From contig JAPQWV010000005.1 of NCBI GenBank assembly GCA_027422505.1, positions 7,693,501 through 7,757,500 of the forward strand: DNA of 64,000 bases, written 5' to 3'. Source of the DNA: Craterostigma plantagineum. Its lineage: Eukaryota > Streptophyta > Magnoliopsida > Lamiales > Linderniaceae. Position numbers and translations under genes: made by a program. Position 1 is the first letter of the stretch. The number at the start of each line of letters is the position of its first letter. Of the stretch, positions 30,250 to 60,831 are shown one piece after another. The notes under the pieces were generated by a model. The model was not told where the DNA came from. It ran no database searches and worked only from the letters and a program-made list of their open reading frames with translations.

Positions 30250-31376
30250 GGGTAAATTCCTTATCAGACCCTGTCAGAAACTAAACTTCCTTATCAGTAC
30301 CCCTGACAAAATTTATTCCTTATCAGTACCCATCTGCAAAAAGTTGTGTGTTTAATACCCCCAAACAGTAAACGGACGAAAAGACCCTTTCTGAAATTAA
30401 ACTAGACATCATACCAACTGTTTTGATTATTATACCAACTGTTATTCTAATTATACCAACTGTTATCATTATTATACCAATTGATATAGTGTACAATTCT
30501 GTTGGTATAATTACGACAACAGTTGGTATAATTTCTACAATTTCTGGTACAATAGTAAAATCAGTTGGTATAACACCAATGTCACTGTATAAAATTAAAA
30601 TAACTGGTATAATAACGAAAATAGATGGTATAATTTCTACAATTTGTGGTATAATTTCAAAATCAGTTGGTATAACGTCCAATTTCACTGTATAAAATTA
30701 AATAACTGGTATAATAATGAAAAGAGATGGTATAATTTCAACAATTTCTGGTATAATTTCAAAATCAGTTGGTATGACGTCCAATTTCACTGTAAAATTA
30801 AAATAAATGGTATAATAACACAGACAGATGGTATAATTTCTACAAATTTTGGTATAATTTCAAAATCAGTTGTATAACGTCCAATTTCACTGTATAAAAT
30901 TAAAATAACTGGTATAATAACGCAAACAGATGGTATAATTCTACAATTTCTGGTATAATTTCAAAATCAGTTGGTATAAATGTCCAATTCGCTGTATAAA
31001 ATTATAAAACGTTAATTACTTGTACGATAACCAAAACAGATGGTATAATTTGTACAATTTCTGGTATAATTTCAAAATCAGTTGGTATAAATGTCCAATT
31101 TTCGCTGTATAAAATTATAATAACGTTATTTACTGGTACGATAACCAAAACAGATGGTATAATTTTTATAATTTCTGGTATAATTTCGAAATAAGTTGGT
31201 ATAAATGTCAAATTTAAAGTGTGAGACGGGTATTTTCGACTTTTTAACCCTGAAAAGACCTTTTTAGGTACTGAACAGGAAGAAATTTTCAAATGGGTAC
31301 TTATAAGGAAGAAATAATTCGAGGGGTATTTAAGAGGAATTTGAAAACTCAAAAGGTACTGATAAGGAATTAACCC
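30250..31376. mobile_element. Mutator-type element, 1127 bp, with internal tandem repeats
   Basis: The ends are GGGTAAATTCCTTATCAGACC and (reverse complement of the right end) GGGTTAATTCCTTATCAGTACC. A perfect 9-bp duplication, taaaagaaa, is at 30241-30249 and 31377-31385. More cttatcagtacc and ggtactgataagg words lie just inside the ends. The middle is a tandem array of about 108-bp units. No transposase is encoded; isoleucine/threonine-rich frames crossing it come from the array. Confidence 0.88.
30410..31205. repeat. Tandem array of about 108-bp units (ggtataatttc...cagttggtata)
   Basis: About six diverged copies each contain caatttctggtataatttc, aaaatcagttggtataa, gtccaatttcactgtataa and a ggtataataac block. 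Spacing of the cagttggtata word is roughly 100-112 bp. Each unit is itself built on a ggtata word. Confidence 0.8.
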
Positions 31377-32670: not shown

Positions 32671-33509
32671 TGATGTGGACCGCGTAAAACGACCTTTTGA
32701 AACGGCGGTTGGCGTAGTTGTTCTTCCCTCGTAAATTCTCCGGCGCGAGTTCTTCGGTCCCAGTCGACCTCCTCCGTCGAGCCTAGCACTCAAACTCAAA
32801 CAAACACGTCAGAAGGGGGCCAGGTTGGTTCCGGCGTAGCCCCTCCAATGCTTAAGTCAGAAAATGGGTGAAAGTAGGTATTTTAGGCTCGTAGATCAGT
32901 TTTAGTTATTTGGAAAGCGTACCTGGGAAATGAAAAAACCGTTGTTATTTATACTAACCTCAAATCATCTTTGCCTGGACCTATTCTTCACCTTGGTCCG
33001 TCTTTCTCGCGAACCTCATGCTGTGAACGTGGTCTTCCCCACGATCCCACGCTCTCATTTCCTCTTCCTCCTTTCAGTTTCTTTCATGACTTCGTCCCCT
33101 CAACGTGAGACTGCACCGCTCGGGCACTTTCTCTTTGCTCGGCCTTATCCTCTTGATCGGGCTCTTGCCTTCCTGTTCCTCCCGTTCTCAGCCGACCTCT
33201 TCTGACATCCCCTTCGCCTCTGGGCAGCTCGATTCATATGCCCTCCTTCCCTTCTCGGGTGCCTTTGCTCGGGTATTTTACCTTCCCCTTTGCTCGGGTA
33301 TTAAACCTATAAGCCCACCCGACCGAATTACTCTTCTTTGAACTCCTTTCTCCGCAGGGGGGCCTCCTCCCCTCGCGCCATTATATGTCCCTCGGGCTAC
33401 CCCCAGGGGATACCTTACTCATTCGCCTTCTTCCTTTCGCGCCCGTTATTCGCGGGCTTTCCGGTAGTTATCATTATTTTACCGTTAGCTTGAAATCCCG
33501 AGGGTAACA
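32671..33509 (-). repeat. 3' LTR of the Tat element, 839 bp
   Basis: It contains a 160-bp segment (32728/32734-32893) bounded by two copies of ctcgta. The other LTR has only one ctcgta and lacks the segment. The remainder aligns closely with 54571-55256. Confidence 0.9.
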
Positions 33510-33525
33510 ATTGTCCCCCCCCCCC
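33510..33525 (-). other. Polypurine tract of the Tat element
   Basis: Eleven C on the plus strand (33515-33525) give a G-run on the minus strand immediately before the 3' LTR. Confidence 0.65.
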
Positions 33526-36377: not shown

Positions 36378-38058
36378 TGATCGCGTGTGTGTACTTTAAT
36401 ATATTAAACAGATGTTCATGCAAATACGTCAAGTAATAATTAAAACGAATATGTTATAACTAGTACCACGCGCGTTAGACAGTGTACCTATCGTTTGTAG
36501 AATAGCTATAGCGAGTATCCGAGTATCGAACACGATGAATAACTTGACTACTAGTAATAACCTATCACTCGATATTTAGCCTATGTAAATAACGGGATTG
36601 ATTTATGTTATGACTATTTTAATGGATTAATCTAATCAAATAAAAATAACTAAGAGAGCACAACTAGGAAATGTATGAGTAAGTGAAAATAATAAATATG
36701 TGTTCGGGGTTCGAATCTCGCTAGGTGTTGTCGGCTAAGGCTACAGAATATCTCTCTTACGTGTTATTGGCTAAATCGCAGTAATTTCCTACCCACTTAC
36801 GAGTTTGCTGTCGCCCTAAACGTTCGTGGAAATCCAAGATTAATAATTACTAAACAGCGAGGATCGAGTATTTGCTGTCGCCCTATACTCGGATCCTAAT
36901 GTCTACGAACGGTCTAAATCGTTATTTAGCTGTCGCCCTAAACGATGTACCACACATTCATATCAACACATAGACATATTGATACAAAGAAACATGTTCA
37001 TAGAACAATAAATAGCCAGATTACACGTGTTCACGATTATCCAACGACTTAACTACGACATAACCCAACGTTCATCTAAACCCAAACACATAAAAGGTTT
37101 AGCCACTCATATTGGACGTCACAACAACGATTCAAAGGAAACGAGGATAGAGAACTCATAAAATCTTCCCTAATAAGTGAGTATGGCGGTTCTGAGGTGG
37201 AGCTCTCGTTCCTCGATCGAATGAGCGTGACTGCGTTGTTGGATCGTCCCTTACGTGTCTCCGAATAAAAGAGCAGCTTCTATTGTTCTTCCTCCTCTCC
37301 TTTTCTCTAAGTTTTCGTCTCTATGATGTTGTGGTTGAGTTCTGAGAAGAACTCCCATTTTATGCATCGAATTTGGGCCAAAACCCTGAAATTTGGCACA
37401 TTCACGGCCACTTAACGGGGCTTCACGGCCGTGATAGATGAAATTAGGCTGACTTTTCGTCTTTCTTAAACCATTCACGGCCTCGTTCATGAGAAGTCAC
37501 GGCCGTGACGGCGGCTTAAACCCTAAAACTTGACTTTTCTGGAGCTAGTCACGGCCTCTTGCATCCTAAGTCACGGCCGTGACAACGGGCAGTGTTGCTT
37601 TGCTTTGTTTCGGTCGAGAGTCACGGCCAATTGCATGTTGAGTCACGGCCGTGACACATAAGCTCTTCCCATCTTAAGCTTTCTGTCCTCGTTCACGGCT
37701 TCGTACATGAGGGTTCACGGCCGTGACGAAGGACATCCCATCATTTTGCCGCCTTTCACGGCCACATGCATAGCACTCACGGCCGTGAACATTGAGATTT
37801 ATGTCTTTTAAGGCTTACTGCCCACGTTCACGGTCTCTTACATGTGGTTCACGGCCGTGACTATGGCCTGACAGCTTCTTACTTGGCCATTTTGCGTCGT
37901 TTTTCGCCTCGTTTTCGTTCCTTTTCGCTCGATAACCATTCGAAGGTCCTACAATATTTAAATGAGTGTAAATAAGCCAAGAGATGCATGGAATGACCAA
38001 AAATATTCTATTATAATCCAAATAAATACAATAATAAACGTATTAAATACGTTTATCA
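36378..38058 (-). repeat. 3' LTR of the Athila element, 1681 bp
   Basis: It is closely similar to 48848-50520, with scattered substitutions and small indels. It holds the seven-unit palindrome array at 37402-37860. A TATA-like gcataaaatggg lies on the minus strand near 37355-37366, between the array and the transcribed part. Confidence 0.93.
37402..37860. repeat. Seven-unit half-site plus palindrome array (TCACGGCCGTGA), 3' LTR
   Basis: The perfect 12-bp palindrome TCACGGCCGTGA starts at 37423, 37497, 37571, 37643, 37715, 37777 and 37849 (spacing 74, 74, 72, 72, 62, 72). Each is preceded by a half-site tcacgg(c/t)(c/t) starting at 37402, 37475, 37549, 37621, 37693, 37756 and 37828, that is 21 or 22 bp earlier in every unit. 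Spacers between half-site and palindrome vary but often contain tgcat or tacatga. In element orientation the array lies in U3, upstream of the TATA-like site. Confidence 0.93.
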
Positions 38059-38060
38059 AA

Positions 38061-38076
38061 CCTCCCCACACTTAAG
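38061..38076 (-). other. Polypurine tract of the Athila element
   Basis: The minus strand reads CTTAAGTGTGGGGAGG just before the 3' LTR, a typical Athila polypurine tract. Confidence 0.8.
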
Positions 38077-39359
38077 CTTTTGTTGTTTCCTCAAGCAAAT
38101 TAAAAGCAAGAAAAGGTAACAAGATAGTGGCATGACCATTCACAATTCACCAACGCAGATAGGAAACACAAAATGAAATCAAGCAAGCAATTATGGACAC
38201 TGCAACAATAATCAGCACTTATCGACACGAATTCCTTAGCACTACTAATCGAGATCCACACCTCACAGGGATTCACTCAAATCACTCAGTGTATATGCTA
38301 ATAAATCGGTGAATCGCTCAATTCATGCAATAATCTAGTCTATACCATATTCTTGCAAGTCAATCGCACGTCTACTACTTAAAGCAGCTAGCATGAATCA
38401 GAAGGTCTTTTTCGGGTTAAACGGGATCAGATAGTAATGAGTTGGTAGTGGAATCATATATGAGTAGCAGTCGTGTCGGTCTTATGTCATTGTCTAAAGC
38501 GCGCCAAGAATTAGCCTTTCTGGTTATGCCGTCTTCATATTCCTCTTATTTCTGCTGCGTTCCACTAAGCCTTTCTTCTCCCACGTCTCAAAATGAGAGA
38601 TGATGTGGAAATCACGAGAATGGAAGATTATCGAAGGAAAGGTTCTTTCTTTCTTTTCGCAACAGTTTATCCTCTTCTTGCTTCAGTTTTCCTCCTTCCA
38701 ACGCCTTTTTTTTCTCTTTTTCTTTTTTTTCTTTTTATTGTTTTTTTTTCGAATCACTCTTCGCTTTCGGCGTTGTCTTGGGGCGTCATCTGACTGCGCT
38801 TTTCGACTTTGACATTCGACCTTCACTTCTACTTAACTCGGGTTCAAATGATCTCTGGAGGCTTATTTAGGTAAGCGGCTTATGAAAATATAAATATAAG
38901 GTTTAAGAAATAAAAAGGCTTAGGCACAAAGTGGCTAACAACGGTGATCAGTCGTGGTCGGGAACTTTGGCCGTGGACTTATTCCCTAATGCCTTCGTCA
39001 TAATCATGCAAGACATACTACAAGCAGTTTCAATGCGCATCAAACGAGCAAGTTCTAGAGAGACGTAAATTATGCACTACTCACACAACCAAGAAAAATG
39101 AGCAAAAGCTCGTCAGCTCAAAACTCTCACAACGGAACATGGGTTATGTGTGTGAATCTCTCAAAGTAACACCATGTCTATTCATGTGAAAAGATTAAAT
39201 CACGGATGCATGTCTTTATCGCTCACTAGACTCCCTAGTATGCAATCCACTTTGAGATGAACGCAAACAATCATGCCAGACTTCTATAGATTTAATACCC
39301 ACAGCTCGTCATAAAAATTTTCACGTAAATTTTCAACAAAATTCCCCAACAAAATTCCT

Positions 39360-39375
39360 CCTCCCCACACTTAAG
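39360..39375 (-). other. Second, identical 16-bp polypurine-tract copy inside the Athila element
   Basis: cctccccacacttaag recurs exactly, 1.3 kb from the terminal tract and just beyond the env-position frame. It could act as an internal plus-strand primer site (inference). Confidence 0.55.
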
Positions 39376-39632
39376 ATGCACGTTGTCCTCAACGTGTAAA
39401 ATAAAGGGAAGGTAAAAGAAGTTGAAAAGAACGTGACTCCCCTGAAAAAAATGGCGTTGCCTCGAGCATTTGATTTAGTTGAACATGGTTGTTTCAAATG
39501 ATTTTGAAATAGTTGAGTCGTAGTCTAAAATCGTGTCACGCTTCCTGAAAACACTAAAAAGAAAATTAACCGCACGGAGAAAATAATAAAAGATAACAAA
39601 ATGAGTCATAGTCATCACAAGTAACATGATTA

Positions 39633-40949
39633 CTAGACCAACACAAAAGGAGTACTAATAGAACACATAACAAAGTAAAAGACACTAAGATGGTGGTGGG
39701 GGCGAGGTGGCCGCGGCCGAAGGTGATCCATCGATTCTTGAGCAAGCCGAACGGACTCCTGTGTATGCTTCATCGCGTTCTCCATGGCTTGAAGGGCCAG
39801 CTCATATCTGTGTTGCTCTTCGCGATAGCGGCGGTGGGCTTCTTCGTTTCGACGCTCATACTCATGTTGGCGGTGCCGTGTCTCCTCATCGCGTCGTAGG
39901 GCCTCTTCATTGTAGCGTAGCATTTCCTGGCGTGTGAAGCTCTGCGGCTGACGCGTAAGGAGCGACACCTGATGACTCCCCCTCGTGGTAGCCGGAGGAA
40001 TAGGAAGGTCCGGCAGTGTCTGGGTCAACCGGGAATGGCCCACGCCCTCGATAGCTAGTGGCTCGGGACCAATTAGGCGCTTTGATCAGCATCTTCATCT
40101 TCAGCATCATCTCCTCGTTCACCAGATTTCGCCCACCCACTATCGCCATCTCTGAGGGATTTGCTGGCCACAAGTTTAGCCCCTTGATAACCTTCGTAAC
40201 AAATGGCCCAACTGCGAGCTTCCCGTGACTACGAACATCTGCTTGGGCCGCAAAGGCGTGTTTCAGGGCCATCCCTAAATGCACTTGTTGACCGCGCTGC
40301 ATCCTGGCTAAGTAGAACAGGTCGCGAAGGCCAATCGCGCCGTGCGAGTCGCCCCTTGGTGTGAGCGAGGTCGTCAGCAGACGGTGGATATAGCGCTGGC
40401 CTGGGCTCCTAAGCGACGAGGCCTTCGATGTCTTGACACTGAAGGGTGGCTCGCCAGGTCGTGTAATCTCAGCCCAGCAGGCCTGTCGAACATCTGGGTT
40501 GCCAAGGTAGTCTTTGTAGTACAAATCGGTCAAAGATTGTTGGTTGCCGAAATATGGCACCGGTACTCCAATTGCCCGGCAGATGTCGCCTATGTCCACC
40601 GTGTGTTCCTTGTTAAATGCCCGAAATGTGATCTTGTTACGCCGAATTCTTCGTGGGCAAAGGTGGACAGGAACTCCAGGGTCAGCTCCTTGTACGCCGG
40701 CTCGTCGATGTGAAAGAATTCGAGCCATCCGCTGAGGGACACGTACCCGGCCACTTGCTGGTCGATGTGATACTTCGCCAGCGTGTCATGATCAATCTGA
40801 TCAGTTGGAATGAACTGCGTATCCTTTAGCCGATTATATCGGGCCTGGTGCGTCTCATCGTCAAACTGCCGCATAGAATCTAACAGTGACGTCGCGCCTG
40901 GGTGTCGCCGTGGACGATTCGGTGATGCGGCTGAGCGGCTTCGACCCAT
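39633..40949 (-). pseudogene. ATHILA ORF-1-like protein in env position, two frameshifts
   Basis: It starts at 40949 (MGRSRSAASPNRPRRHPG). The first frame runs to about 40640 and includes QVAGYVSLSGWLEFFHID and LTLEFLSTFAHEE. The next frame (about 40640-40000) gives ITFRAFNKEHTVDIGDICRA and GVPVPYFGNQQ. The third frame (about 40000-39650) gives a Glu/Arg-rich coiled coil (RYNEEALRRDEETRHRQHEYE...). This matches the ATHILA ORF-1 family found after pol in Athila elements, a position once compared with retroviral env. I see no signal peptide or membrane segment, so an envelope role is not supported. Confidence 0.75.
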
Positions 40950-41601
40950 AGTACCTAGAAGTCCAACTGCTAGTTGGCGAGAAAAAGATAATCAACACAG
41001 CTCGACTCGACCAACCAAAGACAAAATTGACAATTCTAAAACAAGAACATATACAAATTCAAGGCGGCATTTCGTCGAACACATAATAGACGAGCTGAAA
41101 TACTTCTTCTAATTGCAAAAATCGGTCAACCAAGCACACTCTTCGACTTCAAACGAGTAATCAACGCAAAATAAACCAGTAAAAGCAACCAATTCCGTCA
41201 AAATTTCCCCAAATCCCTAAATTTCGACATTAGGGTTCATCATGCCAAAATCGAAATTAACGGACTAAATCAACAAATACCTCAATCCCAACGTGTTTAA
41301 AGCATAAATTTATCCATGAGAGAGCAATGTAAACACTAAAATTCGGACCCAAATCTGAAAATTGCAAATTCGTAAGATATGGTGGCGAGAAGTGATACCT
41401 GTTGATTTTACCGAATTTAAAGTGTGGGTATGTGTTTGGTCGTTGGTGTCACCGGAATGTGTTCGACGGTGCAGAGGTGCGGCGGTCGGAGAGGTGGTTT
41501 TGGGGTGATTAGACAAGAGAAATTTTCGATTGTCGTTGTTTTTGTGTGAAAGAGACGAAGAAAGTAGTGAAATGAGTTTAAAATGGGTTAAATCGCATCC
41601 T

Positions 41602-42146
41602 TCACGGCCGTGAACATCAATTCACAGGCCGTGACTCTTGGATCATGAGCCGTGACTGAGGACAGTGAGTTAAGTCCGTCAACGCACACGGCCGTGACTA
41701 CTGAGCCACGGGCCGTGACCGACTAATTTATTTATTATTTTTTTTTATTTTTTATTTTTTTATTTTTTTATTTTTTTATTAATATTTTATTTTTTTATTA
41801 TTATTTTTATTTTATTTTATTATATATTATTTTTTTATTTTTTTCTTCTATTTTTTTATTATTTTATTTTTTTTTATTATGTTATTTTTTTTAAGTATAT
41901 AGTTTAATAATAATTTCTTCAGCCACGGCCGTGAATTCATATTCGCCAACCGTGACCCAGGGCAGTGGGCTAGGTCTAGGTCTAGTACGTTCACGGCCGT
42001 GAGCGTAGAGGTTACAAGCCGTGAATTGTAGCAGAGAGTTTGTAGTGGAAACCACGGCCGTGGCCGTGGTTACAAAAGCCGTGAGACGGGGCAGTGTACG
42101 TAGCATGTACAAGTCACGGCCGTGAGTTGGGTTCATGAGGCCGTGA
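41602..42146. repeat. Internal inverted array: six palindrome plus half-site units
   Basis: Palindrome cores (n)CACGGCCGTG(n) start at about 41602, 41686, 41923, 41991, 42052 and 42114. Each is followed by a half-site (ccgtga) ending 21 or 22 bp after the palindrome end (41634, 41718, 41955, 42024, 42084, 42146). Order and spacing mirror the LTR arrays, in the opposite orientation. gggcagtg-type words are shared with the LTR spacers. A T-rich run of about 160 bp (41725-41895) separates units 2 and 3. Confidence 0.9.
41725..41895. repeat. T-rich low-complexity tract
   Basis: Almost pure T with A every 3-8 bases; it is probably expanded by slippage within the internal array. Confidence 0.85.
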
Positions 42147-42413
42147 CTGGTTTTTTTTTTCCTTCTATTTTTATTATTATTATTATTATTATTTTTAGTA
42201 TTTTGATTATGATTATTTTATATATATATTTTTACTATGATTATCACATAATCGACGAATTTTTCGAGAGCGATTTGCACGAGGAAAAATCTGATAATCG
42301 ACAAGGGAAATATCACTTTCTCACGCGGCGTCAAATCTCCAAGTCAAAAATTCGTTTGTATCATTTATTTGATTTGCTGGGTTTGATAATGATGTTTTTG
42401 TGCCCTTCATGCC

Positions 42414-42421
42414 TATAAATA
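42414..42421 (+). promoter_or_regulatory. TATA box on the plus strand inside the Athila element
   Basis: TATAAATA in the context atgcctataaatagac lies 268 bp after the internal palindrome array and 93 bp before the ATG of the antisense small frame. It is a strong plant TATA match pointing away from gag-pol. Confidence 0.55.
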
Positions 42422-42513
42422 GACATTGGTAGAACAACACAATAGCATCATCTACCATAAATCCCACGTCTTCAACAATCTTATTTTCGAAATTTCTGGG
42501 TTAGCTAGCCACT

Positions 42514-42678
42514 ATGAATTGGGGACAACAGCAAGGCCGTGAGAATGAGAGTGAAGAATATGTGAGGATTCGTCATAATTTAGATATGCTATCACTCTAC
42601 CTTGCTCTTCTTTTGGGTTTGTTCGGAGTTTTACTAGCTTTCATGTGTTGGGTTCTCACAAGGTCCACTTTTGTGTAA
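42514..42678 (+). CDS. Antisense small frame in the Athila element: 54-aa one-helix membrane protein
   Basis: The frame is ATG 42514 to TAA 42676-42678. The product has a polar, charged N-terminus (MNWGQQQGRENESEEYVRIR), then one strongly hydrophobic segment (about residues 26-48, YLALLLGLFGVLLAFMCWVL), and a short TRSTFV tail. It lies on the strand opposite to gag-pol, between integrase and the ORF-1-like frame. A TATA box and a leader without earlier ATG (42445-42513) precede it; aaaataaa at about 42691 could serve polyadenylation. I do not recognise the family. Size and single helix fit a membrane microprotein. Chance is possible for a 54-codon frame; the clean TATA-leader-ATG order and hydrophobic pattern favour a real one. 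Confidence 0.5.
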   Translation: MNWGQQQGRENESEEYVRIRHNLDMLSLYLALLLGLFGVLLAFMCWVLTRSTFV

Positions 42679-42854
42679 CCGCCCTTATGAAGCAAAATAA
42701 ACTATTGTCCTGTCTTCTGTGTTATTCGCAGTTTTAATTGCTTTTGTGTTGGACCTTCACACGTTGTAATGGTATTGTAACCATCTTTTATAAAGTAAAA
42801 CTATGTTTCCTATCTCGTCCCTAGATTCTGCGTTGTGACCATCCTTAATATTCG

Positions 42855-43000
42855 CAATAATTTTATTATTAATTAAATATTGTATTGTTATTATTATTAT
42901 TATTATATATATATATTTTAATTTAATATATATAATTTTATTTTATAATTATTATTATATTATTATTATTATTTTTTTTACATATACTGTAATGCCTACA
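42855..43000. repeat. ATT/TA-rich microsatellite tract
   Basis: ttattattattattat and tatatatata runs lie between the antisense small frame and the end of pol. Confidence 0.8.
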
Positions 43001-43077
43001 ACATAAACGAAAATACCTGGGTTGCCTCCCAAGAAGCGCTTCTTTAACGTCGTGAGCCGGACGTACCTTTTTCGTTC

Positions 43078-45081
43078 TACGGTAGCTTGAAATCGAGGTA
43101 CATGACCTCCTTTGTGCCTGTGTCTTCTCCTCCACCGTAATAATGCTTCAGGTGATGGCCATTAACCTTGAAATTTCCCTGCTCAACATTTGAAATTTCG
43201 ACAGTACCATAGGGAAAAACGCGAGTAACCGTAAAAGGTCCAGACCAACGAGATCTTAGCTTTCCGGGAAAAAGTCTAAGACGAGAATTGAAAAGGAGGA
43301 CTTGATCCCCCTCTTGAAATTCTCTATGTTGCTTGATCTTCTTATCATGATACGCTTTTGAGCGTTCCTTCTACATTTTTGCATTGTCGTATGCCGACAA
43401 ATGCCATTCATCAACCTCATTGATCTGGAGCTTACGTTTTTTACCGGCTTGCACCAAATCGAGGTTTAAAGACTTTATCGCCCAGTAGGCTTTATGTTCT
43501 AGTTCAATAGGAAGGTGACATGCCTTTCCAAACTAGTCGATATGGGGTAGTGCCTATTGGTGTCTTATATGCAGTCCTATAGGCCCAAAGTGCGTCGTTA
43601 AGCTTATTCGCCCATTTCCGTCGATTCCCATCTATGGTTTTCTCTAGAATGCGCTTCAACTCACGGTTCACTACTTCTACTTGACCACTTGCTTGTGGAT
43701 GATAAGGAGTAGAAGTGCTATGCTTAACACCATATCTTTCTAACGTACGTGCGAATTGGGTGTTGCAAAAATGAGTACCCCTATCACTAATAATGCATTT
43801 AGGTGACCCAAACCGTGAAAACAATGCTCGTAGAAATCTAACAACAACCCTAGCATCGTTCGTGGGTAAAGCTTGCGCTTCCGCCCACTTGGACACGTAG
43901 TCAACTGCCACAATTATATATTTGTTGTTGTATGAACTAGGAAATGGACTCATAAAGTCTATGCCCCAAACATCGAACACTTCACAAACTAAAATAAAGT
44001 TCTGAGGCATTTCATCGCGTTTAGAGATGTTACATGCTCGTTGACATTGGTCACATGTGTTGACGTACATATTAGCATCCTTAAAAATCGTCGGCCAATA
44101 GAAGCCGCATTCAAGTACCTTTTGGGCGGTTCGATTAGCTGCATAATGCCCTCCGGTTGGTCCGCCGTGGTAATGCTCAATAATTTTCATTGTTTCGGGG
44201 AATGCAACGCACCTTCGGATTACTTGGTCTGCACATCTCCTGAAAAGATAAGGATATTTCCAAAAGTAGTACTTCAAGTCAGAAAAGAATTTTTTCTTTT
44301 GCTGACTCGTATACCCTTTTGGAAGAACCCTCGCAACAAGATAATTAGCAAAATCTGCAAACCAAGGAGTATCATCACCTATCACTTGTATTGAGTACAA
44401 GTGCTCGTCTGGGAATGTGTCGTGAATCGCTTTGTTGTCCTTGTTATGGATTTCGGACTCCTCTAGTCGAGAGAGGTGATCCGCCGCCAGATTCTCTGCA
44501 CCCTTCTTGTCTCGGATCTCTATATCGAACTCTTGAAGGAGTAAGATCCATCTAATTAGCCGAGGCTTGGCGTCCGGCTTCGCTAGTAAATACTTAAGGG
44601 CAGAGTGGTCAGTGAAAACAATAACTTTCGATAAAATAAGGTATGACCTGAATTTATCGAAGGCGAACACGACAGCTAAAAGCTCCTTTTCGGTGGTGGT
44701 ATAATTTGCTTGGGCTGCGTCAAGCGTCTTACTCGCGTAGTAAATCGGCCTGAAATGGTTGTCTTTGCGCTGCCCTAGCACAGCTCCCACTGCGTAATCA
44801 CTCGCATCGCACATTAGTTCAAATGGTAACCCCCAGTCGGGGGCAACCATAATAGGTGCTGCAATCAGTCGCTCCTTAAGCAAGTTAAAAGCATGCAAGC
44901 ATTCATCGTTAAACTCAAACGGATCATCTTTCTCAAGTAATCTAGATATGGGTCGAGCAATCTTAGAAAAATCCTTAATGAACCTACGATAAAACCCAGC
45001 ATGTCCTAGAAAACTTCTAATTGACCTTACGTTCGAGGGAACGGGTAGTTTTTCTATCGTCTCTAACTTAGCTCGGTCCAC
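43078..45081 (-). pseudogene. Athila RNase H and integrase, C-terminal part frameshifted
   Basis: From 45081: [20 protein letters not shown] starts the connection domain. RNase H ([39 protein letters not shown]) follows. Integrase has an HHCC zinc region ([16 protein letters not shown]...TCDQCQR) and catalytic residues in [19 protein letters not shown] and [18 protein letters not shown] one-base loss near 43533 ends the 525-codon frame at 43504. The integrase C-terminus continues in another frame ([18 protein letters not shown]..., LRSRWSGPFTVTRVFPYG) to 43078, with a TAG near 43372. Domain order RT-RH-IN is the Ty3/gypsy order. Confidence 0.9.
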
Positions 45082-45091
45082 TTCGATTCCT

Positions 45092-46129
45092 TTAGAGGAA
45101 ATCTATACCCTCTCGAACCATAAAGTGGCACTTTTCCCAATTAAGTGCTAAGTTCGTATCCTCGCAACGTGCGAGTACGAGCTTCAGATTAGCAAGATAA
45201 ACATCGAATGACGACCCAAACACACAAAAATCATCCATAAACACCTCCATTACCTCGCCTACCAATTCGTCGAATATAGCCATCATACATCGTTGAAATG
45301 TGGCTGGGGCATTGCAAAGACCAAATGGCATCCTCCGGTATGCAAATGTGCCGAAGGGGCAGGTGAATGTGGTCTTCTCCTGGTCCTCAGGTGCTATAGG
45401 GATCTGCAGGTATCCTGATAAACCATCAAGAAAATAGTAAAATGAGTGACCAGATAGTTTTTCTAACATTTGGTCGATAAATGGTAGGGGAAAATGGTCC
45501 TTTCTCGTGGCGTCGTTCAATTTCCTGTAGTCGATGCACACACGCCACCCAGTAACGGTCCTTGTTGGAATCAACTCATTCTTGTCGTTCGTGACGACCG
45601 TCATACCTCCCTTCTTAGGAACCACTTGGACCGGACTTACCCACGCACTATCTGAAATGGGGTAACTCATCCCTGCGTCTAGCAATTTAATCACCTCCTT
45701 CTTAACGACGTCCTTCATATTGGGATTGAGTCGCCTTTGACGTTGAGGGACTGGCTTGAAATCATCCTCCATGAGGATCTTATGCGTGCAGTAGCTCGGG
45801 CTGATACCCCTTATGTCGGATATCTTCCACGCCAAGGCCTTCTTGTGCGCTTTCAACACATCCAAGAGCTGCCCCTTTTGTCCGTCGTCTAGGCTCGATG
45901 AGATGATGACTGGTAGCCCTCCGTTGCTGCCAAGGAACGCATACTCGAGGTGTTCGGGCAGCGGCTTCAACTCGAGGACCTGTGGCTCCTCGACCGATCT
46001 CTTTTTCTTGTCCTCTTCGCTGCTCACGTCGATAGCTATGATGGGCTCGCCGACTTCCTCCCCACACTCGTCGATTGCCAACATTTTCTGTGTATCTTGC
46101 TCGTAGGGAAACTGTGATAGACCTTGCAC
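45092..46129 (-). pseudogene. Athila reverse transcriptase
   Basis: The 345-codon frame has SAWVSPVQVVPKKGG, WRVCIDYRKLNDATRKDHFP and LDGLSGYLQIPIAPEDQEKT. It also has FGTFAYRRMPFGLCNAPATF and the active site VFMDDFCVF (FMDD, 45230-45241). It stops at 45092 after REGIDFL, where the next block of pol follows in a different frame and a short conserved stretch (usually VLGHKV-like) is missing, so a small deletion has split pol. Confidence 0.9.
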
Positions 46130-46197
46130 AGAAAAAAGAAAATCATGCTCAAAAGCGTCTAAGTAGTAGCACTTATCGTCATGCTCATTACTCTTCT

Positions 46198-46542
46198 TCA
46201 GCGATTCAGCATATTGAACGTAACCTTCTCGCCATCTACCGTCAAAGTTAACGTCCCATTTCTGACATCTATCATAGTCTCACCGGTAGCTAAGAATGGT
46301 CTACCTAATATCAATGGGACATTATCATCCTCTTCCATGTCTAAGATAACAAAATCGGCGGGAATCACGAATTTACCTACCTTAACTAGGACATCGTCAA
46401 TAACTCCTCTAGGGTATTTTAAAGATCGATCAGCTAATTGAAGGCTCATCCTAGTGGGTCGTGGTTCACCTAGTCCTAAGCGCTTAAACATGGAATACGG
46501 CATTAAATTTATGCTAGCTCCTAGATCAGCTAAAGTCAACAA
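46198..46542 (-). pseudogene. Athila protease region
   Basis: ADLGASINLMPYSMFKRLGL carries the Asp-Leu-Gly-Ala-Ser form of the retropepsin active site common in Athila. It is followed by VGKFVIPADFVILDMEED, VPLILGRPFLATGETMIDV. It is out of frame with both gag and reverse transcriptase here. Confidence 0.85.
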
Positions 46543-48387
46543 CTAAATCTCCTATAAGGCAGGGAATCGTAAAACTCCCTGGGTCTTTGAGCTTCTTCGG
46601 CATCTTGTTCTGAAGTATCGCCGAGCATTCCCCTCGTAGACATACCATGGAAACATGTTCGAGCTTCCTCCTGTTTGTTAATAGGTCCTTCAAGAACTTG
46701 GCGAAGCTGGGCATCTGCGTAATAGCTTCAACAAACGGTAAGTTAATATGTAATTCTTTACACATGTTCATAAATTTACCGAACTGTGTCTTTCTTCAGC
46801 CGAGCTGGGTAGGGGATCTTTGGCTGGTATGGCTTCACCGATGGTTGCTCGATCTCCTTTGCCTTTCCTTTCTCAGGCTCGACCTTTTCCTTCTCAGCCT
46901 CGTTCTTCTCGACATCGTTGCCCTTGCTTTCCTCCACTTTTGGCTTGTCATTGCCCTCAAAACTGGCCTTCTCAGTCGACTTCTTTTTGGGACGTACCTC
47001 TTGCAACTCTCTTCCGTTCCTCAGGTCACTGCTTTGCAATATTCCTTAGGGTTTGGCTCGGTGTAACTTGGAAGTGATCCCTGAGTTCGCTCAGCCAACT
47101 GCTTCGCCATCTGGCCCACTTGTTGCTCCAATTTCTTGATAGAGGCGTCGGTGTTCTGGGCACGTACTTCCATGTACTCCTCCATTTTAGTCATTCGACT
47201 CTCGTGGGCTTGAGTGGTGTTGCTGAAATTTGTGAGGAGCGTCTTCATCATATCCTTCATCTCCCACATATCATCGGATCCCGACCCCTAGATGCGTTCT
47301 GATACTAGCGTGATGTTCCTCCTTGGAAACCAGATGGTCTAGGTTGGAATCCTGGTGGCCCTTGCCATGGTTGTTTTGGTTCCCATACGCCAGATTTGGA
47401 TGCGCTCGAGGTTGAAAACTCCGTTGGCCTTGGTAATTCCCCATATAGTCCACGTGCTCTAGTGATTGCCCTAATTGGCACTCTGAGGTCTCATGAGGTG
47501 CGCCACAAATCTCGCACTGTGTTGTGTATGGCTTCTGAGGTGATGTGGTGGTCATGACGGTATGCACGAGCTGTGTTTGCCCGGCCTTTGGAAGTAGCGT
47601 GTTGATCACCATCTGGAGCTGGGATTAGTAGTTGCAATCTGTTGTTGCAACGCCTCGAACTTGGCATTTGTAGCGGTCTCCTCGCTCACCCCAAACACTC
47701 CTGGAGCCTTTATCCTCATATTGCCTCTCATAAAGCTGTTCCTTGAGTAGTCTTCGATTAGATTCCAGGCATCTGTGGCATTGAGCTTCACGAGCCCTCC
47801 TCCCGCGGCTCCGTCTAGCATATGAACAATTTGATCATTGAGGCCTTCGTGAAATCGGCCTTCGACATCCCGTGTTGTGGGCACTTCTTTAATATGGACT
47901 TGTACCTCTCCCACACCGCGTAAAGATTCTCTGAATCCTTCTGGTGAAAAAGAGAGATCTCCGTCTTCAACCTTAATACCTTTGACAATTGGAAGTAATG
48001 GCCGATGAATGCTGCTCGCAGCTCTTCCCAAGTAGTGATCGATCTGGGCGGTAACATCTCCAACCAGTCCTCCGCCCTGTACTTGAGTGAGAATGGAAAC
48101 AACATCAGCTTGATAGCATCGCTCGGGACCCCATTAATCTTGATGGTGTCTGTTACTGTCAGAAAGGCCTTCAGGTGGGAGTATGGATCATCATCAGGAT
48201 TCCCCTCAAACTGGGCCGTCTGAAAGATCATTTGAAGCCAAGCATGCTTCAGCTCGAAATTGTTGTTCTCGATCGGTGGAATAATGATCGCCGATTCGGT
48301 ACCGCCTAGAGTGGCGCTCTTGAGTAGATCTTGTAGAGATTGTTCTTCTTCTTGGTCATGGTGGACGGGTACTCTGTGGTCTGCCAT
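46540..48387 (-). pseudogene. Athila gag, multiply frameshifted
   Basis: It starts at 48387 (MADHRVPVHHDQEEEQSLQD). Capsid motifs FELKHAWLQMIFQTAQFEGN, KLMLFPFSLKYRAEDWLEML and LYAVWERYKSILKKCPQHGM are clear. A CX2CX3HX4C-type zinc motif (CEICGAPHETSEC) lies near 47510. A coiled coil (TNASIKKLEQQVGQMAKQL-like, about 47250-47060) and a Glu/Lys-rich segment follow. The chain is spread over at least five frames, with breaks near 47820, 47610, 47270, 47030 and 46776. No full Gag can be made. Confidence 0.85.
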
Positions 48388-48823
48388 CTCGACTTCTGTC
48401 TCTCGATTGTCTAAGGACGTCTCTGTTCGAAAATTTTCTACTGACTCCTGAGAGTTGTCCTCTGAGTAGCTAACCAGCGCTTCCTGATAGTTCCTAGCCG
48501 TGCCTTCAGAATTGTATCTGAGTTGCCTTCATAACTTTCCCTCGAAATCCGGATCTCCTTCAACAATGGGACCTGATGGGTGGCTTCGGGTCATCCACTG
48601 TCAAACAGTACCATCAATGAGTGGAAGCAAAATTAGTGAAGGAATGATGGACAACTTGAAGGAATAAAACAAATAATAATTATTTGGAAACGCAAACGAG
48701 TGAACAAAGAAAGGATAACTAACTTAATCCACTTGAATACTTAAAATGCAAATAATTGAAACGAAAATTTAACAAATAATAGTGGCTAAATACCGAACTA
48801 GGGTGTTTCTAATGTCAATCTAT

Positions 48824-48841
48824 TCCCCGACAACGGCGCCA
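48824..48841 (-). other. Athila primer-binding site
   Basis: The minus strand reads TGGCGCCGTTGTCGGGGA, 6 bases from the 5' LTR; this is the common Athila/gypsy primer-binding site. Confidence 0.88.
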
Positions 48842-48847
48842 AAAACT

Positions 48848-50520
48848 TGATCGCGTGCGTGTACTTTAATATATTAAACAGATGTTCATGCAAATACGTC
48901 AAGTAATAATTAAAATGAATATGTTATAACTAGTACCACGCGCGTTAGGCAGTGGACCTATCGTTAGTAGAATAGCTATAGCGAGTATCCGAGTATCGAA
49001 CACGAGGAATAACTTGACTACTAGTAATAACCTATCACTCGATATTTAGCCTATGTAAATAACGGGATTGATTTATGCTATGACTATTTTAATGGATTAA
49101 TCTAATCAAATAAAAATAACTAAGATAGCACAACTAGGAAATGTATGAGTAAGTGAAGATAATAAATATGTGTTCGGGGTTCGAATCTCGCTAGGTGTTG
49201 TCGGCTAAGGCTACAGAATATCGCTCTCGTGTTATTGGCTAAATCGCAGTAATTTCCTACCCACTCACGAGTTTGTTGTCGCCCTAAACGTTCGTGGAAA
49301 TCCAAGATTAATAATTACTAAACAGCGAGGATCGAGTATTTGCTGTCGCCCTATACTCGGATCCTAATGTCTACGAACGGATCGTTATTTAGCTGTCGCC
49401 CTAAACGATGTACCACACATTCATATCAACACATAGACATATTGATACAAAGAAACATGTTCATAGAACAATAAATAGCCAGATTACACGTGTTCACGAT
49501 TATCCAACGACTTAACTACGACATAACCCAACATTCATCTAAACCCAAACACATAAAAGGTTTAGCCACTCATATTGGACGTCACAACAACGAGATTCAA
49601 AGGAAACGAGGATAGAGAACTCATAAAATCTTCCCTAATAAGTGAGTATGGCGGTTCTGAGGTGGAGCTCTCGTTCCTCGATCGAATGAGCGTGACTGCG
49701 TTGTTGGATCGTCCCTTACGTGTCTCCGAATGAAAGAGCAGCTTCTATTGTTCTTCCTCCTCTCCTTTTCTCTAAGTTTTCGTCTCTATGAGGTTGTGGT
49801 TGAGTTCTGAGAAGAACTCCCCTTTTATGCATCGAATTTGGGCCAAAACCCTGAAATTTGGCACGTTCACGGCCACTTAACGGGCCTTCACGGCCGTGAC
49901 AGATGAAATTAGGCTGACTTTTCGTCTTTCTTAAACCCTTCAGGGCCTCGTTCATGAGAAGTCACGGCCGTGACGGCGGCTTAAACCCTAAAACTTGACT
50001 TTTCTGGAACTAATCACGGCCTCTTGCATCCTAAGTCACGGCCGTGACAACGGGCAGTGTTGCGTTGCTTAGTTTCTGTCGAGAGTCATGGCCAATTGCA
50101 TGTTGAGTCACGGCCGTGACACATAAGCTCTTCCCATCTTAAGCTCTCTGTCCTCGTTCACGGCTTCGTACATGAGGTTCACGGCCGTGACGAAGGACAT
50201 CCCATCATTCTGCCGCTTTCACGGCCACATGCATAGCACTCACGGCCGTGAACGTTGAGATTTATGTCTTTTAAGGCTTACTTCCCACGTTCACGGTCTC
50301 TTACATGAGGTTCACGGCCGTGACTATGGCCTGACAGCTTCTTACTTGGCCATTTTGCGTCGTTTTTCGCCTCGTTTTCGTTCCCTTTTGCTCGATAATC
50401 ATTCGAAGGTCCTATAATATTTAAATGAGTGTAAATAGAGCCAAGATGCATGGAATGACCAAAAATATTCTATTATAACCCAATAAATACAATAATAAAC
50501 GTATTAAAATACGTTTATCA
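48848..50520 (-). repeat. 5' LTR of the Athila element, 1673 bp
   Basis: It is the partner of 36378-38058. On the minus strand the palindrome array (50323 down to 49867) lies in U3. A TATA-like gcataaaaggg (about 49820-49830) follows, then the transcribed leader. Small indels and substitutions distinguish it from the 3' LTR. Confidence 0.93.
49867..50323. repeat. Seven-unit half-site plus palindrome array, 5' LTR
   Basis: TCACGGCCGTGA starts at 49888, 49962, 50036, 50108, 50179, 50240 and 50312. All seven palindromes are perfect, whereas some half-sites have changed (cagggcc near 49941, tcatggcc near 50086). So the palindromes have been kept better than the half-sites since insertion. Confidence 0.93.
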
Positions 50521-54570: not shown

Positions 54571-55256
54571 TGATGTGGACCGCGTAAAACGACATTTTGA
54601 AACGGCGGTTGGCGTAGCTGTTCTTCCCTCGTAGATCAGTTTTAGTTATTTGGAAAGCATACCTGGGAAATGAAAAAACCGTTGTTATTTATACTAACCT
54701 CAAATCATCTTTGCCTGGACCTATTCTTCACCCTGGTTTGTCTTTCTCACGAACCTCATGCTGGGAACGTGGTCTTCCCCACGATCCCACGTTCTCATTT
54801 CATATTCCTCCTTTCAGTTTCTTTCATGACTTCGTCCCCTCAACGTGAGACTGCCCCGCTCGGGCACTTTCTCTTTGCTCGGCCTTATCCTCTCGATCGG
54901 GCTCTTGCCTTCCTGTTCCTCCCGTTCTCAGCCGACCTCTTCTGACATCCCCTTCGCCCCTGGGCCGCTTGATTCAATAGATATGCCCTCCTTCCCTTCT
55001 CGGGTGACTTTGCTCGGGTGTTTTACTTTCCCCTTTGCTCGGGTATTAAACCTATGAGCCCACTCGATCGAATTACTCTTCTTTGAACTCCTTTCTCCGC
55101 AGGGGGGCCTCCTTCCCTCGCGCCTTTATATATGTCCCTCGGGCTACCCCCCGGGGATATCTTACTCATTCGCCTTCCTCATTTCGCGCCCATTACTCGC
55201 AGGCTTTTCGGTAGTTATCGTTATTTTACCGTTAGCTGGAAATCCCGAGGGTAACA
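54571..55256 (-). repeat. 5' LTR of the Tat element, 686 bp
   Basis: It aligns with 32671-33509 but lacks the 160-bp segment between the two ctcgta words. TG...CA ends and the duplication atctt are intact. Confidence 0.9.
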
Positions 55257-55261
55257 ATCTT

Positions 55262-57256: not shown

Positions 57257-58051
57257 ATGGAACATTGTCATCGCCTTCGAGTGTCCCCATGGCCGGCGAA
57301 GATGATAACAGAGCACGCCATGACCGCCGAGAAAATCATCAAACATCGCCGGAGAAACCCTAAAGCAGCTAAGAAGACCAACCATCAGCATAAAACCCTT
57401 CGAATCTCAGTGGCCGATCCTCACGCTACCGACTCATCAAGCGACGACGGCGCCGACGAGCTTATCCTCCTCCGCCGTGAGAAACGAGTCAGAAGGTACG
57501 TCCATGAAATCAAACTCCTCGAAGCGCCGCCGCCTCCTTCATCAGACGACAATATCTGCAGAAACAGCGCACAGTCGTCGCCGAGCGGCAGAAAGACGAC
57601 GAAGAACGGCGGAGGAGGTCTGAAGTTCCGCGGCGTACGTCGGCGTCTGTGGGGCAAGTGGGCGGCTGAGATAAGGGACCCTTTTAAAAAGGTCAGGCTT
57701 TGGCTGGGCACCTCCGAAACGGCGGAGGAAGCTGCGAGGGTTTACGACAGCGCCGCCGTTAAGCTGTGCGGCCCAAACGCTAAGACCAACTTCGCTAATC
57801 CCCAGTCGTCCTTCTCGCCGTCGTTTCACGGCGGAGGTTATGAGTCCGACGACGGCGGCGACAGTCGATCTCAGAATCAATATTCTCCGACGTCGGTGCT
57901 CCCTGAGCGGTCGGTTTGCCGTGATGAACGGATTTTTGTGGAGGAGGAGGGCAGCGGTGAGGTTCCCGACTACTCCGGCGAGTTTATGCCGTCGGACGTC
58001 GGCGATTTCTTCAATTTCGACGGCGAGCACTACAAAAATAAGTTTATATAG
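57257..58051 (+). CDS. CRF-type AP2/ERF transcription factor, 3' coding end split by a CACTA element
   Basis: Cytokinin response factors (ERF group VI) are nuclear DNA-binding regulators. The CRF domain is at about residues 47-64 ([18 protein letters not shown]) and is followed by [13 protein letters not shown]. The single AP2 domain is at about 123-182 ([22 protein letters not shown]...[20 protein letters not shown]...GPNAKTNF) and has the ERF-type Ala/Asp of WAAEIRD. The usual RPWGKW motif reads RLWGKW here. The gene is intronless. Codon 257 (GAG, 58025-58027) is the CACTA target duplication. The last seven residues (HYKNKFI) and the stop come from the transposon. The lost acidic C-terminus reappears at 59442-59594. 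A truncated 264-aa protein with both domains could still be made. Confidence 0.88.
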
Positions 58052-59439
58052 TGACGGAAAGTGCTACTAAACTGCCGTAGCACCTTTAGGTACGGATATT
58101 TGTGACGGGAGAACGGTAGCTAAGATTTGCGACGGAAAATCCGTCGCAAATCCGTAGCTAAACTTAGCAACCAAATATCTGTCGCAAATTTGCGACGGAA
58201 AAACGGTCGCAAAATGTTGTGACGGAAAAGCCGTCACAAAAAATAGCGGCGGAAAATCCGTCGCAAATTTGCGACGTCACAACCGTCGGAAAGTGTTGCG
58301 ACGTATAGTCCGTCGCTAAACGAATTTAGCGGCAATTAAAATTTCAAAACAGATTTAAAAATTTAAAATTTAATAATTAAAAATTAGTTTTATTTTTTAT
58401 TAGTTTATAACCCCAATAAACGTTACAGTTCCCCATATACCACTATTCTACCTTACCTATTATCTCTCTTACTTTTCGCCAGTATTATTTTCATCTCTTC
58501 GTCTTCTGCAATTAGGAAAAAAAAAGCTTCGAATTGTGGCCGCGACGGCTTCGACGTGGCTGCTCGGAACAGGCTAAGGGAAGGTGACCGCAACGGCGAT
58601 TGAGGGGCGGCGCCGCTCAACTGCGAGACGCCGTGAGGGTCAGCTCTGCGGTGGTTATCGGTCTTGAGGTACATATCTGGTTTTCTCTTTCTTCTTCCTT
58701 TTCTCTTCATCTTCTTCCATTCTTTCTCTTCGTATATTTTTCTTCAGCTTTTTTTTTCTTCTATTTTCAGCTGCTCCGAGGTTGGCGAGCTGGCGGATCA
58801 TGCGGCGTTTTGGTCCAAGGGTGGCAGATCCGGCGGCAACAAACTCGAGCAGGTGGCGGATCTGACGGCGGCGACCTCGGGCGGTGGCTGATCTGGCGGC
58901 GGCGGATCTGGCTGCGGAGAGCTCGGGCGGTGGAGCATCTGGCGGCGGAATGCTTTGGCGGTGGCGGATCTGGTGGCGGAGAGCTAAGAGCGATACGGAT
59001 CTGGCGGCGGGAGCTCGTGCGGTGGCAGATTTGCGGCTATGAGGTCTGGTGTTGTAAGGTGGTCGCGGGTTTTTGATGTGGGTGCTGGATCATCCGGCGA
59101 GGTTAGCTCGCCGGTGGTCCGGCGAGTTTTTTTTTTATTTTTTACCCAGATTTTGCGACGGAGTATCCGTCGCAGATAGTCGGTCGCAAAAACTAGCGAT
59201 GACGAAAGGGGTCGCTAGCCGGTCGCTAAATTTGTGACGGCTTCTCCATCGCAAAAATAGCGACGGTTTTCCCGTCGCAAGTTTCCGACGCTACCTTAGC
59301 GACCGATTTTGCTACCACTTCAATTTTTCCGACAGCGATTCAGCTACGGAAGTATTCCGTAGCTATTCCGTCGCTAAACCTATTTTGTGACGGAAAAGCT
59401 ACGGCTTTGCTTGTGGCTAATTTGACGAATTTTGTAGTG
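58028..59439. mobile_element. CACTA-type non-autonomous element 1, 1412 bp, inside the CRF gene
   Basis: It starts CACTACAAAAATAAG and ends ATTTTGTAGTG, with a 3-bp duplication gag at 58025-58027 and 59440-59442. Both ends carry arrays of gcgacgga/tccgtcgc motifs, the subterminal repeats typical of plant CACTA elements. The middle (about 58460-59100) has GC-rich ggcggatctgg repeats and an intron-like stretch (gaggtacatatctgg...ttttcagctgctcc). Reading frames of 158 and 85 codons there have no recognised domain. It may include captured host sequence; this is unproven. Confidence 0.92.
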
Positions 59440-59441
59440 GA

Positions 59442-59594
59442 GTGGGAGAGCCAAAGTTGCCGTTTGACTTTAGTCAACCCGGTTTACTTGATGAACCGGT
59501 TTTAGATGATGGGTTCGGTTTTGGCGAAAATTTGGGCGAGTTAACGGCGAGTTTCGACGATTTCTTTTGCTTTAACGTTGTTTTCAATACATAG
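59442..59594 (+). pseudogene. Displaced C-terminal coding end of the CRF gene
   Basis: A 50-codon frame plus TAG reads PKLPFDFSQPGLLDEPVLDD and then FGFGENLGELTASFDDFFCF, an acidic and aromatic tail like the activation region at the end of CRF proteins. It follows the CACTA element directly. Removing the element and one gag copy would leave the two parts out of frame by one base, so either a small lesion accompanied or followed the insertion, or one base is wrong in the assembly. Confidence 0.75.
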
Positions 59595-59685
59595 TTGTTT
59601 GTTTTGTGTAAACTTTGTAACGAGAAGTTTTGCTTTCTATTTTTCGTTTAAGTCTTGAGTCTAGTAGTAAATACCTTTTAATTTA

Positions 59686-60664
59686 GGAAAATTTGACAAT
59701 AATAATCCCAACTATCATTGGTTCGCTCAAAATAATCCCAACTATGAGTTATTTCTTAATAATCCCAACTATATGATGAGTCTTCTGAAAATGCACCCGT
59801 GACTTGTTGCAATTTGTTGAACGGGTCACCTATGACACATGTCATCTAATTAATTGATTAACTTTTTCATTTTGATTTTTATCAATTTATTTCGGTTTTC
59901 CATTCCCTAAATAGGAAACCATCGGTTAATCAAATATTTAACCGCGGGTTAATCAAAAACTGGATCGTCGGATTTAATTTTTTGACAATATAAATGCCAA
60001 TGTCGGAATTAATTTTCGCTAATCGCGTTATTATATTTTTTTCTATTTTTAAATTTTATATAAATAACAGAATAAATAAAAAATTTCAAAAATATTTAAA
60101 CTGTTCGAAACTGGAACAAAAACTGATTGAACACATCTACCGCCTACCACTAGTAGGTTATGTATTCTTACTAAGATTTTTGTAAACCATAGTTAGGAAT
60201 GACAAACGGCAAGTTCTAGGCGTGGGTCTAATCTCTATCCTTGTCCCGGCAAGTAACGGGATAAAATTGTCCATCTTAGTCCTCGCCGGGATCCTTGACC
60301 CATGTGATTTTTCTAAAAAAAAAATTATTTTTTACATAGTATATAAGTTAAATTTAATATTAAATAGAATTTAAATATTATTTATATATTCTAATAATAT
60401 AAAATCCAAAGTGTAAGTTTACCTTAACCACGGTGCGTCTATATAGAATTCCCTTAAAAAACGATTTCCGAATTTATTATGTTTTTACATTTGTGTCTGT
60501 AATTATAATTAAAAAATATAATTTACCTACTAAACAAGTGTCAAGTCATTTGGGTGCATTTTGGGAAGACTATTCATATAGTTGGGATTATTCAAAAATA
60601 AATCATAGTTGGGATTATTTTAAGTGGATTACTCATAGTTGGGATTATTATTTTCAATTTTTCC
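59686..60664. mobile_element. Mutator-type MITE, 979 bp
   Basis: The ends are GGAAAATTTGACAATAATAA and (reverse complement of the right end) GGAAAAATTGAAAATAATAA. A perfect 9-bp duplication, tttaattta, is at 59677-59685 and 60665-60673. Three copies of aataatcccaactat lie inside each end in inverted orientation. Its core (about 60190-60320) has cccgg/ccggg words like an old hAT MITE end. It is non-coding. Confidence 0.9.
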
Positions 60665-60831
60665 TTTAATTTATTTGATACGTCAAACTACAGTTATAAT
60701 CTATCCATGATATTGTTAATATATTACGATTATATCCTGAAATCAATTATTTCCTATGTATAATAAAAGAATATAAAATTAAATTTATAACTAATTTAAA
60801 AATAACATAAACTATAAAATGAATGTGCTAA

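Follow-up and report, generated by a model that had tools for sequence, protein, structure and literature searches.

A Ty3/gypsy element of the Athila lineage with a broken env-like gene

The window analysed here, a stretch of 64,000 nucleotides from Craterostigma plantagineum, contains an Athila-type element on the minus strand at about 36,378-50,520. Its LTRs are 96.9% identical, with 37 mismatches over 1685 aligned positions, and its main parts are as follows.

36378..38058, minus strand: 3' LTR (TGAT...ATCA), by alignment to the 5' LTR
48848..50520, minus strand: 5' LTR, by alignment of the LTR pair
48824..48841, minus strand: primer binding site TGGCGCCGTTGTCGGGGA, a few bases past the 5' LTR
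47815..48528, minus strand: gag frame (Retrotrans_gag, PF03732, E 2.3e-13)
43504..46542, minus strand: pol in several frames, with protease, reverse transcriptase, RNase H and integrase (PF13650, PF00078, PF17917, PF00665)
39907..40991, minus strand: env-like gene, broken into two overlapping frame pieces, first ATG at 40949

Gag and the protease, reverse transcriptase, RNase H and integrase domains follow one another in this order between the two LTRs, as in the Athila lineage of Ty3/gypsy. Pfam matches on the minus strand place the integrase after reverse transcriptase and RNase H, which is the gypsy order and therefore excludes membership of the Ty1/copia Sireviruses. The primer site of the element reads TGGCGCCG, and the letters TGGCGCCGTTGTCGGGGA represent what we take to be a primer binding site of the tRNA-Asp type. 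Calypso and Diaspora are described as using a tRNA-Asp primer (PMC1142308). Both env-like pieces matched PF03078 (ATHILA ORF-1) colinearly and weakly, with E values of 0.043 and 0.1 that fall short of the cut-off, and a search of the protein database with an env-like piece returned nothing at E 0.001. The gene probably belongs to the ATHILA ORF-1 family, judging from these colinear matches.

The Athila element is flanked by the LTR pair of an older element (32888-33511 and 54628-55258, 94%). Two further repeats lie elsewhere in the window: a large inverted repeat at 58028-62240, with arms of about 1.4 kb that are 98% complementary and internal GGCGGATCTGGCGG-like repeats, and a tandem array at 30503-31204, with 6.7 copies of a 102-bp unit built from subunits of ~21 bp containing TGGTATAAT.

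The palindrome array of the LTRs recurs inverted inside the element

A palindrome array is present in each LTR and again between pol and the 3' LTR.

37402..37860, minus strand: 3' LTR array, 7 palindromes, each followed 21-22 bp on by a half-site when read in gag-pol orientation
49867..50323, minus strand: 5' LTR array, 7 palindromes
41602..41718, plus strand: internal array block 1, 2 palindrome/half-site units
41923..42146, plus strand: internal array block 2, 4 units
37357..37364, minus strand: TATA-like CATAAAAT of the LTR, read from the letters

In addition to the seven palindromes of each LTR, six lie internally, where CACGGCCGTG starts at 41603, 41687, 41924, 41992, 42053 and 42115. 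With up to one mismatch, the palindrome was found at 23 places in the window (0.63 expected), and the half-site GGCCGTGA occurred 49 times (0.91 expected). Each unit comprises a TCACGGCCGTGA-like palindrome and, ~21 bp on, a GCCGTGA-like half-site; internally, units 1, 2 and 6 have GGCCGTGA as their half-site, units 4 and 5 have AGCCGTGA, and unit 3 has AACCGTGA. LTR units read in gag-pol orientation and internal units read on the plus strand have the identical order, TCACGGCCGTGA and then the half-site. Half-sites outside the palindromes occupy opposite strands, minus in the LTRs and plus in the internal array; the inversion of the array is therefore real. An earlier note on this DNA had described a single internal array and, for the LTR, the same order of palindrome, half-site, TATA and gene. 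The order stood, whereas the internal array proved to be two blocks separated by a 200 bp AT-rich spacer, and the LTR word, about 40 bp from the end of the array, is the weaker CATAAAAT.

Genome-wide searches, which covered 1.71 Gb of the host genome, revealed the exact palindrome plus half-site at 1,755 places, and the reversed control at 0. Among the matches listed (100 places), the motifs were inverted in all 12 LTR pairs with interior motifs, and all 15 interior matches were on the opposite strand. For 12 of these matches, the distance to the inferred 3' LTR was 4.27-4.90 kb. The inverted internal array is thus a fixed, family-wide feature.

Array motifs are conserved beside rapidly changing spacers

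We compared seven sister LTRs with the window. Palindromes were 97.3% and half-sites 95.6% identical, compared with 63.5% for the array spacers and 84% for the remaining LTR, although the aligner anchors on the motif and so somewhat flatters the contrast between motif and spacer. CpG retention in these LTRs was 96-99% in the motif, 69% in the spacers and 84% elsewhere. By counting alone, all nine LTRs contained seven or eight palindromes each. Of the unique units, 40 of 57 from LTRs and 117 of 155 from internal arrays had exact GCCGTGA at 21 or 22 bp. The units had been chosen by allowing up to one mismatch in the inner 10 bases of the palindrome, so that conservation there is partly selected; this criterion did not involve the half-site or the outermost T and A. 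A weak GGCAG box follows the half-site, mainly in LTR units. Distances between palindromes fall mostly at 62-63 and 71-74 bp, and those to the half-site at 21-22 bp, near multiples of 10.5; helical phasing (R 0.65 and 0.74) is only suggestive, as the repeats were copied from one another and are not independent.

These data bear on the reading that the array is merely a fast-turning tandem repeat, serving as a silencing target or CpG island to which no factor binds, with its inversion and its link to the env-like gene (see below) hitch-hiking in a recombining 3' module. Such turnover would fit the differing repeat number among copies, the rapid change of the spacers and the frequent recombination reported among Athila families (PMC2410132). 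Near-invariant palindromes, half-sites and CpGs next to spacers of 63.5% identity are hard to reconcile with it, as is the exact half-site at a fixed distance in most units, and we consider this explanation unlikely.

An antisense frame of 54 codons is maintained by purifying selection

Beyond the internal array, the plus strand carries a small gene antisense to the element, with the following parts.

42414..42421, plus strand: TATAAATA, TATA of the antisense gene, in 46/49 unique copies
42514..42678, plus strand: antisense frame of 54 codons with one hydrophobic helix (about residues 26-48), intact in 42/49 unique copies
42696..42701, plus strand: AATAAA, possible poly(A) signal shortly past the stop, in 39/49 unique copies

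The six units, the TATA and the 54-codon one-helix frame are all found where the earlier note had placed them, with the motif far above chance. The best 19-residue hydropathy of the frame is 2.67. Since 6 of the 127 ATG frames of 45-80 amino acids in the window reach 2.5 or more, the helix alone is not very rare.

Conservation was assessed in copies collected in different ways. DNA searches yielded 39 sister copies, which are top-scoring and hence biased to good copies; the frame was intact in 32 of them and TATAAATA was present in 37. In these copies plus the window, pooled pairwise dN/dS was 0.257 in the frame, whereas the two other plus-strand frames gave 1.09 and 1.23. The minus-strand frames of the same region gave 1.14, 1.06 and, for the frame sharing third positions, 0.39; in the 3' flank, the values were 0.48, 1.11 and 0.67, with one frame lowered. 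Further copies found by protein search extended the set to 49 unique copies. Variants common to at least two copies comprised 23 synonymous and 24 nonsynonymous changes (ratio about 0.28), and singletons 16 and 29 (ratio 0.49); the ratios were 0.93-2.31 in the other two frames and 0.38-1.71 in the flanks. Site counts predict ~21% synonymous changes, giving p 2e-5 for the shared variants with transition bias uncorrected; all variants compared with the +1 frame gave p 0.0015.

A search that ignores the frame gave a consistent result. The promoter 34-mer, with up to three mismatches, matched 928 places in the host genome (control, 0); the frame plays no part in this selection. Ten exact matches, none of them among the copies above, were examined, and eight had a full frame, six of 54 amino acids and two of 56 with an in-frame 6-bp insertion; of the remaining two, one had an early stop and the other a deletion. 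In the genome-wide protein search, whose list is selected by the protein itself, 147 of the best 150 of 2,884 candidates were without an internal stop. All 50 leaders lack an upstream ATG, which is a weak point because only 10 of 222 single changes would create one. Among the outcomes that would have counted against its claim, the earlier note had named first a frame not conserved in sister copies; with 42/49 frames intact and dN/dS of ~0.26, the opposite was found. The substitution pattern indicates that the antisense frame is a gene under purifying selection, and its sequence supports a TATA promoter of its own. Lying between pol and the 3' LTR and conserved in copies, it resembles the antisense aORF-3R class.

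No homologue of the 54-amino-acid frame outside the host genome was found in the protein database, a result of little weight as the plant share of that database is uncertain, nor in viral or prokaryotic contigs, sets which say little here; Pfam contains no family for the microprotein. Just past the frame, the stretch 42713-42815 resembles the 3' part of the frame in copies (74-75% over about 105 bp) and looks like a duplicated, since decayed version of the helix-coding end.

The antisense transcript could instead work as RNA, either double-stranded or interfering with the sense RNA, with the frame being incidental. Antisense regulatory RNAs have been discussed for retroelements (PMC7264820), and parts of the 3' flank are fairly conserved too. 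This reading would, however, leave unexplained why dN/dS is low in one plus-strand frame only and why insertions in promoter-selected copies are in frame; we regard it as very unlikely.

The internal array accompanies the env-like gene rather than the microgene

The earlier note had proposed two promoters of one design pointing in opposite directions, with the LTR array serving gag-pol and the internal array the antisense microgene. The common unit design, the fixed inversion and, as judged by sequence, the antisense TATA gene held up, and the half-sites point toward the antisense TATA and microgene, away from the env-like gene; the TATA and frame are themselves conserved. What found no support was the role of the array as the antisense module. 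Although 30 of the 39 DNA-selected copies have the array upstream of the frame, nine have TATA and frame without it (L022, L029, L031, L032, L034, L037, L041, L045 and L047). In the 50 unique rows including the window, 31 have the array, whereas the other 19 are free of palindromes over about 1.4 kb of upstream sequence; the frame is kept in all 19 and the exact TATA in 18. On a tree built from the TATA-frame block, presence or absence of the array has to change at least three times. These 19 rows speak against the internal array as the microgene's own promoter module. The array is, moreover, about 270 bp from the antisense TATA, as opposed to ~40 bp from a patch on the env-like side (see below), and it tracks the env-like gene. 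Taken as a whole, the notion of matching opposed promoters appears improbable.

Two further arrangements were seen in copies. In the near-identical copies L038, L039, L040, L042 and L043, a ~0.9-kb insertion with GGTATACCGAA-like repeats lies between array and TATA (reverse-complemented, about 300-1250), and the frame stays intact. In L082, a second related element lies in opposite orientation beside copy L013, with pol, array, TATA and antisense-frame sequence.

The association with the env-like gene was evident from protein matches: an env-like match was present in 20 of 21 copies with the array (the window, L014, L024 and 17 of 18 further sampled) and in 0 of 11 array-less copies (Fisher p 9e-8, ignoring kinship). 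The exception, L017, has the array without an env-like match, and none of its sampled pieces matched any part of the element. Comparison of copies defined the segment that differs.

39396..42150, no strand assigned: segment with the env-like gene and the internal array, unmatched in array-less relatives

In 18 of the 19 array-less rows, a distance of 0.4-0.7 kb separates the flanks that correspond to 39.2-39.4 and 42.15-42.2 kb of the window; the remaining row, L072, has only low-complexity matches on the left. Apart from the missing env-like gene and array, the array-less elements are colinear with the window.

The internal array is also linked to the LTR array. All eight internal-array copies in which an LTR was reached have an LTR array (the window, L014, L012, L018, L021, L023, L033 and L036); the LTR was not reached in array copies L013, L016, L017 and L024, nor in array-less L022. 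The palindrome is absent from 8/8 L029-type LTRs of array-less copies (L029, L031, L034, L037, L041, L045, L047 and L069), the LTR of L047 being covered short of its end. Since the LTRs of array-less L032 and L061 carry an array of the variant motif ACACGGCC(A/G)TGT, an LTR array does not always come with an internal one, and the link for the main motif is strong but not absolute. A related LTR type (L080:5170-6501, reverse-complemented, and L093) has variant palindromes ACACGGCC(A/G)TGT with GGCC(A/G)TGT half-sites; neither of the two copies seen with this LTR type has an internal array or an env-like match.

Together, distance and co-occurrence favour the array going with the env-like gene rather than with the microgene. 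A shared divergent promoter fits distance, co-occurrence and half-site orientation, though copies lacking the array still retain the antisense block.

The env-like gene has a conserved splice donor and a probable leader intron

On the env-like side, the array adjoins a pyrimidine patch and a leader.

41546..41563, minus strand: pyrimidine patch TTTCTTCGTCTCTTTCAC, a modest local conservation peak
40955..41398, minus strand: probable intron in the env-like leader, with donor GT at 41398-41397 and acceptor AG at 40956-40955

The patch lies ~40 bp from the nearest palindrome (41603), and the leader follows. A 20-bp stretch at the patch is 69% identical in copies, compared with 55-57% alongside. 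No conserved TATA was found on this side in 18 copies; a TATA-like word is present in five of them, at differing places. The donor reads AG|GTAT at 41398 and the acceptor TTCTAG|GTACTATGG at 40955, and 16 of 17 aligned copies preserve the donor GT, as many as preserve the acceptor AG. Dinucleotides near the donor are kept on average in 5.5 of 17 copies, and 4 of 91 reach 16 or more. Only the donor is telling, because other AGs around the acceptor are kept nearly as often (15-16 of 17). From these sites, a leader intron of 444 nt, ending just before the env-like ATG at 40949, is probable.

Comparison with known retrotransposon modules

The closest parallel for the array is in the Sireviruses. 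According to Bousios et al. 2010 (PMC2829016), Sirevirus LTRs carry numerous palindromic RM boxes upstream of the TATA box, with a CGG-CCG core in 12 of 13 elements; linker copies lie nearly all upstream of ENV in nine ENV elements, with none in four ENV-less ones. The Athila palindrome likewise contains CGGCCG and is repeated in the LTR upstream of the promoter, and internal copies lie by the env-like gene only where that gene is present (20/21 compared with 0/11). Unlike the Sireviruses, which are Ty1/copia, the host of the array here is a Ty3/gypsy Athila element; its units also differ in having a half-site 21-22 bp on, which gives a readable orientation, and in the inversion of the internal array. 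RM boxes were called Sirevirus-specific within a Ty1/copia comparison, and in the sections consulted that account mentions no antisense gene (PMC2829016). Here, such a layout is seen in a Ty3/gypsy element. No plant transposon paper was found for the motif CACGGCCGTG among the titles of the matches listed.

The extra genes have relatives by description. Sunflower Athila 14 has a plus-strand extra ORF(+) of 487 aa related to PF03078 and a small one-helix ORF(-) of 70 aa predicted in the ER (PMC11728184); the likeness is one of description, and the available sections concern one element, with no analysis of ORF(-) conservation, promoter or array. Antisense aORFs are also described for Grande (gene23), RIRE2 and Retand (TRP28) (PMC7264820, PMC11963269). 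They too lie between pol and the 3' LTR, that of Grande with its own promoter; unlike the 54-aa membrane protein, the Grande product is nuclear and TRP28 is predicted to bind DNA, and these elements belong to other lineages. The earlier note knew of no description of such a module in Athila elements. The module is less new than this suggests, in that an Athila one-helix ORF(-) has been reported (PMC11728184), and palindrome clusters in LTRs and before ENV are known from the Ty1/copia Sireviruses (PMC2829016), as are antisense extra ORFs with their own promoter (PMC7264820).

VANDAL anti-silencing arrays similarly consist of short one-orientation motifs in non-coding regions of plant transposons, made by tandem repetition, but VANDALs are DNA transposons and their binder, VANC, is known (PMC5735166). 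Diaspora of soybean, in the Athila lineage, is inferred to have lost its env-like region; its account, as far as available, has no palindrome array or antisense gene (PMC1142308). Env-less Athila relatives and recombination among Athila families (PMC1142308, PMC2410132) are in line with the exchange observed here. In one sunflower Athila clade, a drop of methylation in the LTRs has been described (PMC12844716).

Proposed model

Building on the observed motif conservation, the co-occurrence of the array with the env-like gene (mostly with an LTR array as well) and the conserved donor, we propose with reasonable confidence that the region from pol to the 3' LTR holds two adjacent modules: an antisense microgene, and an inverted LTR-type array that serves the env-like gene. 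The microgene would consist of the TATAAATA promoter, a short leader without upstream ATG, 54 codons and an AATAAA just past the stop. If transcribed and inserted into a membrane, its product would be a small single-helix membrane protein. The inverted copy of the LTR array would act as a candidate protein-binding regulatory array, whose main client would be the env-like (ATHILA ORF-1) gene on its other side. That gene may be read from a TATA-less promoter with the pyrimidine patch and through a spliced leader. The microgene may share the array as a divergent promoter but would not need it.

Most likely, one DNA-binding factor reads both arrays, either a host factor or an element protein. A single factor acting in trans on both would couple LTR and env-like transcription. 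The env-like protein is a candidate for this factor because gene and array co-occur and the sunflower ORF(+) is predicted to be nuclear (PMC11728184); it would then play the part that VANC has in VANDAL transposons (PMC5735166). The L032-type LTR, in which a variant array occurs without an env-like gene, points to a host factor or to an effect in trans. A further-reaching version, which we hold to be doubtful, is that ATHILA ORF-1 is not an envelope protein but a nuclear DNA-binding activator or anti-silencer of its own arrays, that the Sirevirus layout arose by convergence and that the microprotein is a separate ER-membrane factor of several subfamilies. If this were true, ORF-1 would bind the LTR units and those upstream of its own gene, so that array and gene would be kept or lost together.

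With a probable intron, a probable promoter of its own and a conserved array common to the LTR, the env-like gene offers a way to test binding directly. The microgene, which selection has preserved while LTR and 3' module changed, would represent a second function common to several subfamilies, and the array would give a testable handle on how such elements activate their extra genes.
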